DNA of 17,628 nucleotides from Rubrobacteraceae bacterium (GTDB lineage: Bacteria; Actinomycetota; Rubrobacteria; Rubrobacterales; Rubrobacteraceae). Under the pieces are notes generated by a model that saw nothing but the letters and a program-made list of their open reading frames with translations, was not told the DNA's origin and searched no databases. Location of the stretch: NCBI GenBank assembly GCA_013698525.1, contig JACCSM010000110.1, forward strand, positions 1 to 17,628, written 5' to 3'. The first letter of the stretch is position 1. Every line of letters begins with the position of its first letter. Below are positions 1,610 to 10,124 of the stretch, one piece after another. Position numbers and translations under genes: made by a program.

Positions 1610-1846
1610 CTATCGCCCGTGGTATTGGCGCTTGGCTAGCCAGATGCCGAAGGCGACCTGCGCCGCGCCGAGGAGGCGCATCAGGTTCGGGTTCTCGGCG
1701 AAGAAGCGGGCGACTTTGCGGACCCTTGCAGGGCCGAACTCCCACAGGAGCGAGTGCTCCGTGGGGAAGATCACCTCGATGATCCCGTCGCCGACGGTGA
1801 GGATCGCGAAGGTCTCCTTCAGCCTGCGGGCCCACACGCTTTGCAT
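1610..1846 (-). CDS. Small hypothetical membrane protein (78 aa)
   Basis: I do not recognise the family. The start is well supported: AAGGAGG lies 9 bases before the ATG and overlaps the htrA stop codon, with only 14 bases between the genes, so translation is probably coupled to the protease. The N-terminal half is mixed (LTVGDGIIEVIFPTEHS, about 16-32). The C-terminal half has one probable membrane helix (about 54-71, LMRLLGAAQVAFGIWLA) followed by a basic tail (KRQYHGR). Position suggests co-expression with the extracytoplasmic protease HtrA and possibly with the downstream metal exporter. No function can be assigned. Confidence 0.7.
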   Translation of the reverse strand: MQSVWARRLKETFAILTVGDGIIEVIFPTEHSLLWEFGPARVRKVARFFAENPNLMRLLGAAQVAFGIWLAKRQYHGR

Positions 1847-3063: not shown

Positions 3064-3408
3064 GTGGATGCCTCGACCAACAGCAGAGAGGTTCCAGTCG
3101 ACCTCGCCCGCGCGGGCGAGGCTCGCTACTTTATAGTCTGGAGAGGCGCCGTCGCAGGACTTGGCGGCGGAGGGCCGAACGAGTTGGCCGTCGCGGCCGA
3201 AGCCGTCGTTACTGACGTCTTGCTCTCCGCACGAGAAGGTGTCCTCCAAATCGAGTCCGTACACGACGAGGAAGTCGTCAGGATCTCTATCAAACATCCC
3301 GAGATAAAGGAACGCCGGATGAGAGACCTCGAAGACATGCTGGACCGGTTCCTGGACGATTACGAGATTACCCCTACCCACGCGATGCTCGAAAAGCGGC
3401 TGCGTTAG
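3064..3408 (+). CDS. Small hypothetical cytosolic protein (114 aa)
   Basis: I do not recognise the family with confidence. The frame has GC-rich third positions, and the C-terminal third is amphipathic and charged (RMRDLEDMLDRFLDDYEIT, about 86-104), like a real helical domain. The middle (GGGGPNELAVAAEAVVTDVLLSA, about 35-57) has the flavour of the first helix of GHKL-type anti-sigma kinases (RsbW-like), but the ATP-binding N, G1 and G2 boxes are absent. At most it would be a degenerate relative. No signal peptide or membrane segment is seen. The GTG start has no ribosome site and sits 6 bases after a TANNNT hexamer. It is divergent from htrA and convergent with the minus-strand gene at 3589. 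Confidence 0.6.
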   Translation: MDASTNSREVPVDLARAGEARYFIVWRGAVAGLGGGGPNELAVAAEAVVTDVLLSAREGVLQIESVHDEEVVRISIKHPEIKERRMRDLEDMLDRFLDDYEITPTHAMLEKRLR

Positions 3409-3588: not shown

Positions 3589-3885
3589 TCAACCTCCTGC
3601 GGCGTCTCTTGAGGCAGGTTCGCGGATGGCCTCCTTGACCTTCTCTTCTTCCTCTCTGAGGTAGAGGAAGACGTCCTGGGCGAAGCGTACGGCGTGCTCT
3701 TCGGGAAGGTTGACCCGCCGGTTTGCGAGGACCGACTCCAGCTCCCTGATGGCCGCATCTGCCATCCCGACCATCGTCTCCGCCTCCCTTAGTGTCTCCT
3801 CGCGCTCCTCGTCCGAGAGGCCCTGACTCTGCTTCAGTCGGTTCTGGTGTTCTTCGAGGAAGTGTATGAAGTCCCTGATACCCAC
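3589..3885 (-). CDS. Hypothetical helical protein next to the BchB-like gene (98 aa)
   Basis: I do not recognise this protein. It is acidic and almost entirely helix-forming: about 1-22 (GIRDFIHFLEEHQNRLKQ), a long stretch about 24-53 rich in E, R, A and L, and about 61-90 (EEHAVRFAQDVFLYLREEEE), with no Cys and no membrane segment. It begins 19 bases after the stop of the BchB-like gene on the same strand, so it may be the third gene of that unit and a possible partner of the NB-like proteins. The GTG start has no Shine-Dalgarno, and a perfect TATAAT ends 8 bases upstream, so it may also have its own leaderless transcript. The C-terminus (EPASRDAAGG) looks disordered. Confidence 0.65.
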   Translation of the reverse strand: MGIRDFIHFLEEHQNRLKQSQGLSDEEREETLREAETMVGMADAAIRELESVLANRRVNLPEEHAVRFAQDVFLYLREEEEKVKEAIREPASRDAAGG

Positions 3886-3904: not shown

Positions 3905-5341
3905 TCAGGAGCGCGACTCCAGGAAGATATCTCGCGTCACCATGCCCGAGCCTTGTCTGCGGGCGCGTTCTTCGGCTAGCCGGCGGGCCCGGCCCCGCAA
4001 GAACAGCGGCACCTCTGCCGCCTCCTGTAGCGCCCCGTCCGTCCACTGCATGCCGGCCTCTCCTGCGGGCTCCACGCTCGCCCTCCGCAGGGCATTGTCG
4101 AGCGCGTCGGCAAGGACGCTTGATCCGGCGTAGCCCATGAGCGGTCGCCCGACGAAGGGCCTGTCGGCGACGGGAGGACAGAGGGGTAGGAAGGGCACTC
4201 CAAGAGAGTCGGCCACGCCTTGTTCCAGGTGTGTGCCGACGACCAGGTCGGGCTTCGCGGCTTCGATGCGGGCTGCGACCTCGTCGGGATCGTCCTCGAC
4301 AAAAGCCCCTTCCGTGAAAGTGTGGGCGTGGAAGAGGAAGTCCCTTTCGAGGTGCGTGAGATACGTCCCGCAGGCGGTGACCTCCAGCCCGACCTCGCGG
4401 GCCAGGGCGTAACCGAGGCCAAGAGGGTAGGTGAAGTCCCCGAATATGGCGACCCTGCGGTTCTGGAAGGTCTCGGGCGGTTCCAGCCGCGCGTACCAGG
4501 GAAGCTTCGCCGTGCGGGCCAGCTCGGCCCAGATCGTACGCTGCACGGATTTCGGGTCGAGCTGGCACAGCTCGCCGACGGCCCGCAGGGCCGCGCCCGT
4601 TCCCGCGGCGCCGATCATCGGGGTCGTTACCCGCGGCATCCCGAACTCGTCCTGGAGGTAGAGCGTCGCAGATTCCCCGACCTCCCTGTAGAGGAGCACG
4701 TTGACCCACGCGCGCGGGAGGCGCCCAAGGTCTCCCGTGTTCGCTCCCAACGGCACCCTGGCGTTTACCTCGACCCCGACCATGTCGAGGAGCCGCTCGG
4801 CCTCGGCGTACTCGGCCATCGCCCCAGGACCGAATATCGGTGGCCCGAAGAGGTTGACCGTGGGATACGGGCTCCTCTCGGGCCTGTCGTGCATCCTGGC
4901 CCGGATCAGGTCCTCCAGCGCGAGCTCCGCGGCCTCGGTCTCCCTCATGGCTGGCTCCTCCCAGGGGAACTTCACCAGTTCGGGAGGCCTTCCTGTCCCT
5001 TCTACCTCGGGGAGGGTGGTAGCAGGGATGGTCTCCCCCGCGAGCAGGGAGGCCTCCGAGCGGACGAGGATGACGATCTCCGTCTTCGGGTGACGCCGGA
5101 CGACACCGGAGAGATCGCGGACCAGGTTCCCGGGCGCCATCGAGCTATCGCGTCCCTCGCGAAGCGGGCTGAGCGTGACCGGTGCCATCTCCCCGCTTCG
5201 CTCACGGGCCCCGTGGAGCGTACGGAAGTAAGCTTCGCCAGGCAGTGCCCTGAGCAAAGCATGTACGCCCCTGATGCTCGCGGCCACACGTAGGATACCG
5301 TAGCTCTGCGGTCCCTCGTAGACGCCACGCAGTAGCTTCAC
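3905..5341 (-). CDS. BchB/ChlB-like protein (protochlorophyllide reductase subunit B homologue, function uncertain)
   Basis: This 478-residue protein belongs to the nitrogenase component 1 superfamily and most resembles the B subunit of dark-operative protochlorophyllide reductase. The N-terminus MKLLRGVYEGP...LRVAASIRGVHALLRALPGEAY aligns nearly gap-free with known BchB. The middle has NLFGPP (163-168), NVLLY (214-218) and RRVAIFGD (295-302). The end (about 430-475: MQWTDGAL, PLFLRGRARR, RDIFLES) matches the C-terminal PCP_red domain that marks BchB and is absent from NifK and BchZ. The position of the cluster-ligating Asp36 of Rhodobacter BchB is Glu36, and the SSCTAE cysteine region reads RSEAS. 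True BchB is usually a little longer (about 510-530). The start codon overlaps the BchN-like stop by 4 bases (ATGA), so the two are co-translated. No phototrophy genes lie nearby; the substrate is unknown. Confidence 0.85.
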   Translation of the reverse strand: MKLLRGVYEGPQSYGILRVAASIRGVHALLRALPGEAYFRTLHGARERSGEMAPVTLSPLREGRDSSMAPGNLVRDLSGVVRRHPKTEIVILVRSEASLLAGETIPATTLPEVEGTGRPPELVKFPWEEPAMRETEAAELALEDLIRARMHDRPERSPYPTVNLFGPPIFGPGAMAEYAEAERLLDMVGVEVNARVPLGANTGDLGRLPRAWVNVLLYREVGESATLYLQDEFGMPRVTTPMIGAAGTGAALRAVGELCQLDPKSVQRTIWAELARTAKLPWYARLEPPETFQNRRVAIFGDFTYPLGLGYALAREVGLEVTACGTYLTHLERDFLFHAHTFTEGAFVEDDPDEVAARIEAAKPDLVVGTHLEQGVADSLGVPFLPLCPPVADRPFVGRPLMGYAGSSVLADALDNALRRASVEPAGEAGMQWTDGALQEAAEVPLFLRGRARRLAEERARRQGSGMVTRDIFLESRS

Positions 5342-6669
5342 AGGTTCAGCGAGTCGAGGGTCTCTGCGCGGTCCATGGTACGCACCAGGAGTTCGAGGAT
5401 GCGACGGGCGCCCCCGTAACCGTAGAGTCCGGCTTCGAGGAAATCACGGGGCGAGCGGCACAGGTGTCCGCGGGCGACCAGAGGCAGGTGGAGGCCTGGG
5501 CTGGAGATCACTATGTCAGGCCTACTCTCGTCGATCCGATTCGTCTGCCCCCTGTAGTCCGGCGAGACAACGACGTCTACGTCGGGGCCGAGGGCCTGCA
5601 GCTCGGCGGCCAGGAACCTGCGGTCCAGCCGCGGCGCCCCGACCTCGAGCACTACGGCTCCCGCGTCAGCGAGGAAACGTGCGAGCGGGATCTCCAGCCC
5701 CGTGTCGCCGGTGAAGAAGATCCTCTTCCCCCTAATGCGGTTCCTCAAGACCCCCAGGTCCTCCCACGCAGACCTGGCCCGCGCGACCTCACTGATTCTC
5801 GTTCCGGCTTCCTCTGCCACGTCCTGGACGAAGCGGGCCGTGCCGTCGACTCCGACGGGCATGAGGGTCTTGACCACCGTTGCCCCGCGTCTCTCGGCGG
5901 CCGTCGCTGCTGAGGTCAGGTTCGGGTCCATCACGGCCACTACCGTGCCCTCCCCGAGGGGCGGAAGCTCGCCCATACCGGACCCCGGTACGGCACCTGC
6001 TACCTCCACCCCAGCCCTGGAGAGCTCCGCAGCGAGTCCTTGCGCGGCCCCTGGTTTGAGTGTGCCACCGAGCAGCACCACGGGGCGCCCGTCATTCGAG
6101 TCCGACGGTTCGATGCCTCGTCCCAGCAGGCCTCCGAAGAGCCCGCCGCGCTTCGCCGGAGAGGCGGTCTCCACGAGGTCTGAAGTCTTCCTCTTCGGGC
6201 AGAGGTTCACCAGGACGGTGAGTACACGGTCCTCGAGGTCGGTGGAGAGGATGCCAGGAACTTCGCGGGGGGCATCAGGGTTGACCACCTCAGAGGGCAG
6301 GTCGAGCTTGCGGGCTACGAGCCTGGCCTCGAACTCGGCATCGACCCCGAGCGATTCCGCCGTTCGTCCCGCCACGAGCAGCACCAGGCTCGTTCCACGG
6401 AGTCCGGCGGCACTCTCCACGATCCGGGATGCCAGAAGGCCCTGCTGCGGTGGGTCGTTGGGGTCGATGATCGCGAAGATCACCCGCTGGTCGCGCCGGG
6501 AGGGGGGAAGGTTCGGGGATGGCACGGCCGAAAGGCACTGGACGAGATGGGCTTCAGCCTGCGTACCGACGACGACGACGAGCACATCAGGAAGCCTCTC
6601 CGCCAGGCCATTTACGGCATGCAATGGAGGGAGAACGTCCGGTATCCCCGACTCGTTGAGGATCGTCAC
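5338..6669 (-). CDS. BchN/ChlN-like protein (protochlorophyllide reductase subunit N homologue, function uncertain)
   Basis: This 443-residue nitrogenase-superfamily protein is the likely partner of the BchB-like subunit. The C-terminal part is plainly BchN-like: GKRIFFTGDTGLEIPLARFL (314-333), LDRRFLAAELQAL (348-360), RPDIVISSPG (383-392) and a final GYGGARRILELLVR (417-430), matching the ChlN segments for domain III and the last helix. The N-terminal part is more divergent. By motif alignment the three Cys ligands of the NB cluster (C26, C51, C112 in Rhodobacter BchN) fall on P14, E39 and R102; the only cysteines are C45, C157 and C404. A low-complexity linker lies near 165-195. The GTG start has AGGA 7 bases upstream. 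A possible promoter lies in the 63-base gap after deoD, although all genes are co-directional. Confidence 0.82.
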   Translation of the reverse strand: MTILNESGIPDVLPPLHAVNGLAERLPDVLVVVVGTQAEAHLVQCLSAVPSPNLPPSRRDQRVIFAIIDPNDPPQQGLLASRIVESAAGLRGTSLVLLVAGRTAESLGVDAEFEARLVARKLDLPSEVVNPDAPREVPGILSTDLEDRVLTVLVNLCPKRKTSDLVETASPAKRGGLFGGLLGRGIEPSDSNDGRPVVLLGGTLKPGAAQGLAAELSRAGVEVAGAVPGSGMGELPPLGEGTVVAVMDPNLTSAATAAERRGATVVKTLMPVGVDGTARFVQDVAEEAGTRISEVARARSAWEDLGVLRNRIRGKRIFFTGDTGLEIPLARFLADAGAVVLEVGAPRLDRRFLAAELQALGPDVDVVVSPDYRGQTNRIDESRPDIVISSPGLHLPLVARGHLCRSPRDFLEAGLYGYGGARRILELLVRTMDRAETLDSLNL

Positions 6670-6732: not shown

Positions 6733-7446
6733 CTAGTTTAAGGCGTTGAGGGTGTCCAGCGCCAGTGTCATCATATTGTCCACGGCGCTACGCAGTTCCT
6801 CGTCGCTGATCCTGACTATCTCAGCGCCGATGGTGTCGGAGACGGTCAGCAAGCATCCAGCCCTCACGCCGTGCATTGCGGCTATAGTGAAGATCACCGC
6901 GGCCTCCATCTCGACGGCGAGCACCCCGAGGTCGCCCCATAACGTCGCAGGGTCTTCGGTAGGGTCGTAGAACAGGTCGGAGCTGACTACCTGGCCGACG
7001 AAGGTCCTTCGCCCCGCGCTCTCTGCCGCGTGGTGGGCAGCGTGAACGATGTCGAAGTGGGCCGCCGGGGCGTAGGGGACGCCGCGGGTGATCGAGGAGA
7101 CCGTTCCGTCCTGCGGGGCCGCCGAGGTCGCGACGATGAGATCCCCCAGACGCAGCTCCCTGCTGTACCCTCCGCAGGTACCGACCCTGACCAGATTCTT
7201 CGCCCCTAGCTGTATGAGCTCCTCCGTCACGATGGAGGCGCTCGGACACCCCATGCCCGTAGCCTGGACCGAGACCGGTTTGCCCCTGTAAGTGCCCGTA
7301 TACCCGAGCATCCCGCGCTCTTGGGTCACAAGCTTCGCGTCCTCGAAGAAGGTCTCGGCGATGTACCTCGCCCTCAGGGGGTCACCGGGCAAGAGAACGC
7401 TCTCCGCGAAATCTCTCGGCTCCGCCCGCACGTGAACAGGGCACAT
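6733..7446 (-). CDS. deoD: Purine-nucleoside phosphorylase, DeoD type
   Basis: This 237-residue cytosolic enzyme splits purine (deoxy)nucleosides with phosphate into base and (deoxy)ribose-1-phosphate. Alignment with E. coli DeoD is nearly colinear. GDPLRA (21-26) supplies the first phosphate Arg (R25), R44 is the arginine contributed across the dimer interface, and RVGTCGG (87-93) gives R87 and T90 (Ser in E. coli). SSDLFY (155-160) and VEMEAA (178-183) form the ribose site, and TVSD (201-204) ends with the base-protonating Asp204. These features favour DeoD over uridine phosphorylase. The ATG has AGGGAG 7 bases upstream. It follows the pyrimidine phosphorylase gene after a 145-base repeat-rich gap and precedes the BchN-like gene. 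Confidence 0.93.
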   Translation of the reverse strand: MCPVHVRAEPRDFAESVLLPGDPLRARYIAETFFEDAKLVTQERGMLGYTGTYRGKPVSVQATGMGCPSASIVTEELIQLGAKNLVRVGTCGGYSRELRLGDLIVATSAAPQDGTVSSITRGVPYAPAAHFDIVHAAHHAAESAGRRTFVGQVVSSDLFYDPTEDPATLWGDLGVLAVEMEAAVIFTIAAMHGVRAGCLLTVSDTIGAEIVRISDEELRSAVDNMMTLALDTLNALN

Positions 7447-7591: not shown

Positions 7592-8866
7592 TCACAGGCT
7601 ATCCAGGATAACAGGGGGAGGCTCTACGGGCTCGTCGGAGATTTCGAGCGCCTTTAGTACGAGGCGTCCGGCTCGCTCCGCTTCGCGTTCGCCGTAGAGG
7701 TGGGCTACGGGTTGGTCCATTTCGAGGGGGTCTCCTGGTTTTACGAGGATTTCGACCCCGGCGCCGGGGTCGATCCGGTCGCCTTTTTTCGCGCGGCCGG
7801 CCCCGAGGGCGAGTGCGGCGCTGCCGATGTCCGACGCTCCGAAACGGGCTACGTAGCCGTCTCGCGGGGACTTTACTTCGCTGACTTCGGCTGAGACGGG
7901 GAGGTCTTCCAGGGCGTCTGCGTCGCCGCCCTGGGCCCTGACGAATGCAATGAACTTCTCGTAGGCTGCACCCGAGGAGAGCGCGTTTTCGATGGCGTCG
8001 GCTCCTTCCGGTTTGCCCTTGAGGTCGAGGAGAAGGGTGGCGACGTGCCTGACCTCGGCGGCGAGGTCATCGGGGACGGGCTCGTTCTTGAGTAGGAGGA
8101 CGCTCTCGCGGACTTCGAGCGCATTGCCGATGGTGCTCCCCAGAGGGTTGTCCATGTCCGTGATCAGGGCCGATGCGTCGATGCCAAGGTCCTCGCTCAG
8201 GCGTACGAGGAGATCAGCCAGCTTGCGGGCTTCTTCGGTCGTCTTCATGAATGCCCCCGAGCCGCGCTTCACGTCGTAGAGTAGATGCCCAGCGCCGGTC
8301 GCTACCTTCTTGGAGACGATAGATGAGCCGATAAGCGGCAGAGAGTCTACCGTGCCTGTCGTATCGCGGAGGGCGTAGATCTCCTTGTCCGCCGGCGCGA
8401 GATCCCCCGCCTCGACTATTGCGAGCCCGACCTCCTCGACCTGGCGCGAAAAGATCTCCTCGGAGAGGTTGCACGAGAAGCCGGGGATAGCCTCCAGCTT
8501 GTCTACTGTGCCGCCGGTCGCGCCGAGGCCGCGCCCCGAGAGCTTGGCAACGGGCGCCCCGCAGGCGGCCACGATAGGGAGCGCCGTGAGGCTAACCTTG
8601 TCCCCGACGCCGCCCGTGGAATGCTTGTCCACGCACTCGGGGAAAGAGTAAGTCTCGCCGGATTCGGCCATCGCCCGCGTCAGCGCGAGCGTCTCCGCAT
8701 AGCTCATTCCCTGGATGAAGATCGCCATGAGCAGCGAGGCCATCTGGTAGTCGGGCACCTTTCCTAGGGCGTAGCCTTCTACCACGTCCCTGATGAGCCC
8801 GTCGGAGAGTTCCCCGCCGAATTTCTTGGTCTCTATGGCATCGAGTATCGTGTTCCCTGAGCCCAT
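7592..8866 (-). CDS. Pyrimidine-nucleoside (thymidine) phosphorylase
   Basis: This 424-residue enzyme of nucleoside salvage and catabolism converts thymidine, deoxyuridine or uridine plus phosphate to the base and sugar-1-phosphate. It shows an N-terminal helical domain with PDYQMASLLMAI (38-49) and the glycine-rich phosphate-binding segment DKHSTGGVGDK (80-90). The family signature SGRGLGATGGT starts at 110, and R167 (ALRD), S182 and K186 are expected to bind the base. A C-terminal domain has GYVARFGASDIG and GAGRAKKGDRIDPGAGVE. Length fits the roughly 430-residue Pdp/DeoA family. Whether it prefers thymidine only (deoA) or is a broad Gram-positive Pdp cannot be told from sequence alone. The ATG has AAGGA 4 bases upstream. 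It lies 73 bases after deoB. Confidence 0.92.
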   Translation of the reverse strand: MGSGNTILDAIETKKFGGELSDGLIRDVVEGYALGKVPDYQMASLLMAIFIQGMSYAETLALTRAMAESGETYSFPECVDKHSTGGVGDKVSLTALPIVAACGAPVAKLSGRGLGATGGTVDKLEAIPGFSCNLSEEIFSRQVEEVGLAIVEAGDLAPADKEIYALRDTTGTVDSLPLIGSSIVSKKVATGAGHLLYDVKRGSGAFMKTTEEARKLADLLVRLSEDLGIDASALITDMDNPLGSTIGNALEVRESVLLLKNEPVPDDLAAEVRHVATLLLDLKGKPEGADAIENALSSGAAYEKFIAFVRAQGGDADALEDLPVSAEVSEVKSPRDGYVARFGASDIGSAALALGAGRAKKGDRIDPGAGVEILVKPGDPLEMDQPVAHLYGEREAERAGRLVLKALEISDEPVEPPPVILDSL

Positions 8867-8939: not shown

Positions 8940-10103
8940 CTAGGCGAAGCTCCTGCCTGGAAGCCCGCTTTTCTCGACCCCGAGCCATGCGGCGATGGAG
9001 GCTCCGACATCGGAGAAGCCTTCGCGAACGCCGAGGTCGCCTGGCTCACCGCCGACGACGAGGAGCGGGACGCGTTCGCGAGTGTGGTCTGTGCCTTTGA
9101 AGGTTGGGTCATTGCCGTGGTCTGCGGTGATGACCATGAGGTCTTCTGCGGTCAGTGCATCGAGCAGCTCCGGGAGCCTGTCGTCGAAGCGTTCGATGTT
9201 TTGCGCCATACCCTCGGGGTCGCGGCGGTGGCCGTATTTGGCGTCGAAGTCTACGAGGTTTGCGAAGATCAAGCCCGACTCGACGCGGCCCAGGGCCTCG
9301 AGTACAGCGTCGACTTTGGCGCCGTCGTCGGGTGGGGCGGGTAGATGCTCTGTAATGCCACGGCCGTCGAAGATGTCCCTGATCTTGCCGACGGTTACGG
9401 TCTCGTGGCCTGCGTCCTTTATGCGGTCCAGATAGGTCTCCGAGGGCGGGGTTATGCCGTAGTCGTGACGGTTTTCATTCTCCCGCTCGTAGGAGCCGGA
9501 CTCGCCGTGGAAGGGACGGGCGATGACGCGTTCGACCATGATCTCACCCTCCCCGATGAGCATCTTGTGAGCCTTCTTGGAGGCCTCATACAACTCATCG
9601 AGTGGGATCACGTCGGTGTTCGCGGCGATCTGGAAGACGGAGTCGGCTGAGGTGTAGAGGATCCAGGCCCCGGTTCTCTCCTGCTCGGGGCCGAGCTCCT
9701 CTATGATCTTTGTCCCCGAGGCCGGCCTGTTACCTATGACCCCGCGCCCTGTCCCGTCCCCGAAGCGACGCAACACTTCGTCGGGGAAGCCTTCCGGATA
9801 GGTAGGGAGCGGGTCTTCGAGCACGAGGCCCATCATCTCCCAGTGTCCTGCGAGGGTGGCCTTGGCCGCTGATAGCTCGACCATCAGGCCGTGGGAAGCC
9901 GCAGGAGACTCGGCCGGCGGCAGGCCTGCGATCTTATCGACGTTCCCGAGCCCGAGGACCTGGAGGTTCGGCGTCCGGAGGCCGCCGGTGACCCTGGCCA
10001 TGTTCGCCAGGGTGTTGGCACCCTCGTCGCCGAAGTCCGCCGCGTCCGGGGCATTGCCAGCGCCAAGGCCGTCGAGCACGATCACGACTGCTCTGCGTCC
10101 CAT
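8940..10103 (-). CDS. deoB: Phosphopentomutase
   Basis: This enzyme converts (deoxy)ribose-1-phosphate, the product of both phosphorylases downstream, to the 5-phosphate using two Mn2+ ions. It belongs to the alkaline phosphatase superfamily. From the ATG at 10103 it has 387 residues, close to the family norm. D11 in VLDGLGAG binds metal, T83 in KATLAGHWEMMG is the phosphorylated Thr, and ITADHGNDP plus GTDHTRERVPLL near the C-terminus supply the other metal ligands. AAAGGAGG lies just before this ATG, with a short 3-base spacing. An in-frame GTG at 10118 would add five residues (MERRL) and sits 6 bases after TATGAT, so a leaderless start there is a serious alternative. It is first gene of the minus-strand run. 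Confidence 0.93.
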   Translation of the reverse strand: MGRRAVVIVLDGLGAGNAPDAADFGDEGANTLANMARVTGGLRTPNLQVLGLGNVDKIAGLPPAESPAASHGLMVELSAAKATLAGHWEMMGLVLEDPLPTYPEGFPDEVLRRFGDGTGRGVIGNRPASGTKIIEELGPEQERTGAWILYTSADSVFQIAANTDVIPLDELYEASKKAHKMLIGEGEIMVERVIARPFHGESGSYERENENRHDYGITPPSETYLDRIKDAGHETVTVGKIRDIFDGRGITEHLPAPPDDGAKVDAVLEALGRVESGLIFANLVDFDAKYGHRRDPEGMAQNIERFDDRLPELLDALTAEDLMVITADHGNDPTFKGTDHTRERVPLLVVGGEPGDLGVREGFSDVGASIAAWLGVEKSGLPGRSFA

Positions 10104-10124
10104 CAGCCTCCTTTCCACGTCTGG

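Follow-up and report, generated by a model that had tools for sequence, protein, structure and literature searches.

To our knowledge, every component 1 of the nitrogenase superfamily carries or handles a cluster. In dark-operative protochlorophyllide reductase (DPOR), the [4Fe-4S] cluster is held by three cysteines of BchN and Asp36 of BchB, and the proton is donated by Asp274 of the beta' subunit, which also recognises protochlorophyllide (PMC12518044, in the part consulted). BchB and BchN homologues of Rubrobacter described by Gupta and Khadka in 2016 are named in the consulted parts of PMC7203096 and PMC9561532, the former ascribing to these authors the view that such proteins are ancestral and pre-photosynthetic. 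That B and N of Rubrobacteraceae are not tied to phototrophy is already stated in the consulted parts of PMC7901476 and PMC9561532. Here, a pair of genes for N-like and B-like proteins is described from a stretch of 17,628 nucleotides (the window; contig JACCSM010000110.1, assembly GCA_013698525.1) of a bacterium of the family Rubrobacteraceae; the pair very probably belongs to the same protein family as the homologues of Gupta and Khadka.

Both open reading frames (ORFs) were found on the minus strand, at the place given by the original prediction, which was made from the sequence of the window alone; their overlap reads GTGA and not ATGA as claimed there. The Rubrobacter homologues that it mentioned were already in print (PMC7901476), and the BchB-type domain that it assigned to the C-terminus of B was recovered.

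5338..6669, minus strand: N-like subunit of 443 aa, homologous to BchN but lacking the three cluster cysteines (profile scores, alignment)
3905..5341, minus strand: B-like subunit of 478 aa, homologous to BchB, with Glu36 in place of Asp36 (profile scores, alignment)
5338..5341, minus strand: overlap of the N and B genes, 4 bases, GTGA
3920..4045, minus strand: PCP_red domain (PF08369), residues 433-474 of B (Pfam, 38.2 bits, cut-off 32.5)

Judged from its sequence, the pair is neither DPOR nor an ancestor of DPOR, and the comparisons below point to a constrained, cluster-free DPOR offshoot adjoining deoxyribonucleoside genes. On balance, it is probably a derived offshoot that has left redox chemistry and now serves deoxyribonucleoside breakdown through ligand binding, regulation or non-redox catalysis.

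Profile searches showed the presence of PF00148 in both proteins (149.2 bits in B and 87.8 bits in N, Pfam gathering cut-off 28.6). The top NCBIfam models were those of DPOR B and DPOR N, with E-values down to 2e-130, which, together with conservation across the family, argues that the pair is not a chance match. The curated DPOR cut-offs were missed both by B (436 vs 509 and 264 vs 490 bits) and by N (218 vs 420 and 207 vs 324 bits). Other curated models remained far under their cut-offs, the best scores being 62.9 vs 529 bits for BchZ, 47.6 vs 425 for BchY, 40.3 vs 486 for nitrogenase alpha and 33 vs 505 for NifE. The original prediction named profile scores outside the DPOR clade for both proteins as a refutation, and this applies by half: both do fall under the DPOR cut-offs, yet in the tree each is placed within its own half, N or B.

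The cluster site was examined in an alignment of 28 N and 30 B proteins of the family, including those of the window, to which 6 N and 7 B reference proteins were added. Two rows, L047 (N, broken) and L065 (B, partial), were left out of alignment and tree, and the tree also omitted the rows of 11 further loci. The cluster cysteines of Rhodobacter capsulatus (Rc) BchN are numbered here C26, C51 and C112, which we take to be the usual numbering. Cysteine is present in 6/6 reference N proteins at each of these columns and in 0/28 family N proteins at any of them. The C26 column of the family holds Ser (16), Pro (9), His (2) or Ala (1), the C51 column Glu (25) or Asp (3), and the C112 column Arg (23), Leu (2), Trp (2) or His (1). 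The column of BchB Asp36 is Glu in 30/30 family B proteins and Asp in 7/7 references, and that of BchB Cys95 is Glu in 24 and Asp in 6 of the family. The Asp274 column, Asp in 5/7 references, is occupied by Pro (15), Ser (5), Arg (4), Val (3), Thr (2) or Ala (1), and His378 is found in none of the 30. The corresponding positions in the window, with three newly conserved cysteines, are as follows.

6628..6630, minus strand: N Pro14, column of the first BchN cluster cysteine (Rc C26), by alignment
6553..6555, minus strand: N Glu39, column of the second BchN cluster cysteine (Rc C51), by alignment
6364..6366, minus strand: N Arg102, column of the third BchN cluster cysteine (Rc C112), by alignment
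5234..5236, minus strand: B Glu36, column of the cluster ligand Asp36, by alignment
5054..5056, minus strand: B Glu96, column of BchB Cys95, by alignment
4478..4480, minus strand: B Pro288, column of the protochlorophyllide proton donor Asp274, by alignment
5458..5460, minus strand: N Cys404, new cysteine, 28/28 in the family alignment
4565..4567, minus strand: B Cys259, new cysteine, 30/30 in the family alignment
4178..4180, minus strand: B Cys388, new cysteine, 28/30 in the family alignment

Three database searches gave 668, 643 and 644 matches, and 120 of each were listed, comprising 218 different N and 120 B proteins, near and far relatives of those of the window. Among the matches listed, cysteine occurs at the three N columns in 0, 0 and 1 of 218 proteins; the Asp36 column is Glu in 117/120 and Asp in 3/120, and the Asp274 column is Pro in 120/120 B proteins. 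The new cysteine N C404 is present in 218/218 and B C259 in 117/120 of the same matches, and 180/218 of these N proteins contain only 2 or 3 cysteines in total.

The N C51 and B D36 positions share one alignment column, as do N C112 and B C95. In PF00148-type relatives from three genomes outside the family (G039, G295 and G341), cysteine was found in 7/7 proteins at the first of these columns and in 6/7 at the second; at the C26 column these relatives did not align, and the eighth frame included lies outside the PF00148-type family. Since cysteine is present in all six reference N proteins and, at two columns, in other PF00148-type relatives, its absence represents loss, and the state of N is, as far as the alignment reaches, derived. 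In a tree of 50 rows, the family forms one clade within the N half (100/99) and one within the B half (100/100); the N references cluster without the Rubrobacteraceae group (95/88), and the B half gave no firm order. The reference set is small and the two rows of genome G040 are long-branched, so the conclusion is confined to a derived loss of the cysteines.

No BchL over cut-off was found in any of 39 family genomes, 22 of which have a completeness of 90% or more and a contamination of 5% or less; the BchL-model matches in these genomes are P-loop ends, none reaching beyond model position 92 of 268. Profile searches of the source genome (2.98 Mb, 639 contigs, 79.8% estimated completeness) for BchL and the NifH family gave no full-length match. 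A reductase elsewhere in this genome was considered and rejected, the only candidates being short P-loop matches, read as ParA/MinD-type. BchL is also absent among the scanned proteins of the window, in agreement with the original prediction. Its question of which reductase feeds the pair very probably has no answer, because the cluster ligands are lost and the 39 genomes yield no BchL over the cut-off.

A chlorophyll pathway was likewise sought and rejected, and the view of a genome without a detectable one holds: BchM passed the cut-off in 0/39 and BchH in 0/39 family genomes, and ChlG in 0/5 genomes, three of them of the family. The best BchH scores were about 768-806 bits against a cut-off of 829, a range that a CobN-type chelatase may reach, and no BchH-model match at all was present in G009, G019, G021 and G029, genomes 96-99% complete and all containing the pair.

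The structure prediction gave a whole DPOR-N fold for N, in agreement with the fold of BchN, and B retains its frame at the level of sequence. Purifying selection is indicated by dN/dS of 0.09-0.21 for N and B, and mean column identity is 61-72% in four family alignments. From codon use, B was predicted, not measured, to be highly expressed in R. xylanophilus (PMC4510606, in the part consulted). In Rubrobacter marinus NZ_CP045121 (L089:5542-7004), N is broken up into three frames and B is intact, which is either real or a sequencing fault.

Two family B proteins gave no PCP_red match, probably those of the short rows L083 (417 aa) and L075 (430 aa); the tblastn match of L075 extends to residue 477, which makes a frame break in that row likely. 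The B frames of four genomes of one genus (G003, G004, G005 and G007; loci L046, L055, L056 and L057) stop before this domain. PCP_red thus seems to have been lost within the family, and is dispensable for whatever the pair does.

The original prediction named nucleoside catabolism, a protease and a metal exporter as surroundings, and all of them are present: phosphopentomutase and two nucleoside phosphorylases, an HtrA-type protease and a cation diffusion facilitator (CDF) exporter. Its treatment of the nucleoside genes as mere surroundings does not hold, since one order with the pair is kept across the family; the proposed comparison of neighbourhoods among related genomes showed that the pair travels with the genes of pyrimidine-nucleoside phosphorylase (PYNP) and the DeoD-type enzyme.

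3589..3885, minus strand: S, 98 aa, three-helix protein with no assigned family, 19 bases after B
6733..7446, minus strand: DeoD-type purine-nucleoside phosphorylase, operon partner
7592..8866, minus strand: pyrimidine-nucleoside phosphorylase (PYNP), operon partner
8940..10118, minus strand: phosphopentomutase (deoB), upstream in 16/34 relatives' loci at variable distance

From deoB to S, the intergenic gaps in the window are 73, 145, 63, -4 and 19 bases. To count gene order, the proteins of the window were placed by tblastn on 34 loci from 33 relatives. Upstream of the pair and on its strand, the DeoD-type gene was found in 32/32 loci with room and PYNP in 28/28 loci with at least 2.9 kb. 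The order PYNP-DeoD-N-B is kept on one strand in 28/28 loci with room, and S follows B in 32/33. Less constant neighbours are phosphopentomutase (16/34) and HtrA (25/34), these being raw counts uncorrected for room. PYNP-DeoD-N-B-S presumably form one transcript. The promoter search of the window gave no hits, and terminators were as frequent as in shuffled sequences and uninformative; no known RNA reached the gathering score in the window, the one match having an E-value of 0.26.

The gene for S was found in 20 of 246 genomes of the phylum, all Rubrobacteraceae; the two family genomes of this sample without S are also without the pair, which one assembly gap can explain, the genes being neighbours. 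The mean column identity of S is 73% (alignment of 20), and its predicted structure consists of three helices (pLDDT 87.7). No Pfam family passed the cut-off for the window copy, with only weak matches among the 20 members, and no fold match with E < 0.001 was found in the PDB.

Two further conserved frames were observed in the window. A 114-aa ORF at 3064-3408 (+), between S and HtrA on the opposite strand, has relatives in 6 loci including the window and no Pfam match; a 78-aa protein at 1610-1846 (-), between HtrA and the CDF exporter, is conserved in 11 loci including the window.

PF00148 is present in 31/36 genomes of the family, the source genome included, with two copies in 29 and one in two (G002 and G025), where the copy lies at a contig end. 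BchN-model matches were obtained in 32/39 family genomes, G002 and G025 having B only. Neither N nor B was found in five of the 39 (G001, G008, G022, G032 and G035), and their PYNP neighbour is missing too, with partial matches of 29-31% in three and none in two. The region is therefore probably missing from these assemblies, rather than the pair lost in the relatives; true loss of the whole region may have occurred. Genome G061 carries the pair twice, as differing copies on separate contigs (L129 and L130), and may be a mixed assembly.

A scan of 84,980 species genomes with two B patterns recovered at least 22 loci, all titled Rubrobacter, Rubrobacteraceae, actinobacterium, Actinobacteria or Actinomycetota, and no match for N was found in phage records. 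The BchN cut-off was passed in 0/396 genomes of a phylum sample, and 16 genomes outside the family gave matches under it. Five of the 16 were inspected: G040 and G223 contain complete L-N-B sets, and G039, G295 and G341 other PF00148-type proteins. The set of G040 (L067:8096-11375), from another actinobacterial family, retains all three N cysteines and Asp36; its L exceeds the BchL cut-off (381 vs 345 bits), its B frame ends without a PCP_red-like tail, and no BchH match is present. The set is that of a nitrogenase-like reductase with no assigned substrate. The set of G223 (L128:7106-10722) is near true DPOR, with N over one of two cut-offs and L and B just under theirs; it is adjoined by two proteins that by eye resemble BchE-type radical-SAM enzymes and by cytochrome-assembly-like and multihaem frames, again without a BchH match.

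Several observations weigh against an exit from redox chemistry towards a nucleoside function. Asp274 and His378 are also absent from G223 and G040, whose cluster ligands are kept, so the loss of these two residues alone is no mark of redox death. Over residues 321-380, N matches all of the columns (15/15) in which five reference N proteins do not vary, and PCP_red was found in 18/20 family B proteins (E up to 0.01), which shows that much of the DPOR frame is still constrained. The new cysteines could bind metal, and a chelatase scoring near the BchH cut-off occurs in many of the family genomes. As for the nucleoside link, a shared operon can reflect co-regulation only, G002 lacks S in the 1,876 bases downstream of B and has it on another contig, and selection on S is weaker (dN/dS 0.36, one pair measured).

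Part of this evidence would suit a tetrapyrrole binder, in which reduction is lost and a porphyrin, haem or B12 precursor is still bound in the old pocket, the pair serving as carrier, sensor or chaperone: N keeps the DPOR fold in the model, most B proteins keep PCP_red, and a CobN/BchH-type chelatase is available in many genomes. This is unlikely, as Asp274, to which the part consulted of PMC12518044 assigns protochlorophyllide recognition, and His378 are gone in 30/30 B proteins, the four nearly complete genomes without a BchH-model match contain the pair, BchM passes the cut-off nowhere in the family, and the operon partners are nucleoside enzymes. Quite unlikely, too, is that the pair is still a redox enzyme, with its cluster relocated or a different metal bound on N C404, B C259 and B C388 or on the new carboxylates, and is fed by an unrecognised reductase. 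The near-invariance of the new cysteines in the family and, for N C404 and B C259, among the listed matches is consistent with it, and so is the presence of Glu or Asp, in nearly all proteins, at N C51, B D36 and B C95, three out of four ligand-type columns; the scarcity of cysteine in most listed N proteins, the lack of BchL over cut-off and a conserved gene order without a redox protein speak against it.

The ancestral form proposed earlier for these homologues gains from the position of the family N group outside the clade of the six references. It is nevertheless very improbable, since cysteine at the ligand columns of all reference N proteins, and at two of them in PF00148-type relatives, makes the absence a loss, and the B half, with its small reference set, gives no order to set beside that of N. 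A decaying, functionless relic, for which the split N gene of Rubrobacter marinus could be cited, is hardly conceivable given the low dN/dS of N and B, the identity kept in the four family alignments, the fixed gene order and the high expression predicted for B from codon use.

For the preferred reading, an offshoot of DPOR devoted to nucleoside metabolism, the following mechanism is proposed tentatively, as somewhat less than an even prospect: a cluster-free N-B(-S) complex of a deoxyribonucleoside operon, with a charged plug at the cluster site and a rebuilt cysteine pocket, carrying out non-redox sensing or catalysis on a nucleoside-derived compound. N and B would still assemble as an alpha2-beta2 complex, and the former cluster cavity would be filled by the charged residues Glu39 and Arg102 of N and Glu36 and Glu96 of B, perhaps with Arg31 and Arg94 of B. 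Such a plug could hold the subunits together without iron, the closeness of its residues being inferred from the canonical ligand positions. The old protochlorophyllide pocket, with its new conserved cysteines and arginines, would bind another, perhaps anionic, ligand of deoxyribonucleoside breakdown; S may be a third subunit or a partner, and the complex would serve the nucleoside pathway in ligand binding, regulation or non-redox catalysis.

With the cluster ligands and the proton donor lost throughout the family, genomes of Rubrobacteraceae annotated with 'protochlorophyllide reductase' most likely hold none. Being under constraint, free of a cluster and fixed in its gene order, the pair offers a good chance to learn other uses of the component 1 fold, and the adjoining nucleoside genes make its role directly testable. 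To what was known of the Rubrobacteraceae pair, the present analysis adds the loss of ligands, the gene order and the S protein; no mention of ligand loss, operon or S was met in the literature on these homologues, which was not searched for by these terms, and some of these features may already have been described by Gupta and Khadka (2016).

Among known systems, the deo operon (deoA-deoB-deoD) offers a likeness on the nucleoside side: PYNP, phosphopentomutase and the DeoD-type gene stand side by side in the window, presumably much as in Escherichia coli, with the difference that N, B and S come after the DeoD-type gene. NifEN and nitrogenase component 1 are more distant, with much weaker profile scores, and the columns that are cysteine in such relatives are Glu or Arg in the pair. 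DPOR (BchN-BchB or ChlN-ChlB) is among the closest systems; the pair differs from it in the absence of the N cluster cysteines, in Glu for Asp36 and in the absence of Asp274 and His378, and its family differs in having neither BchL nor BchM over cut-off.
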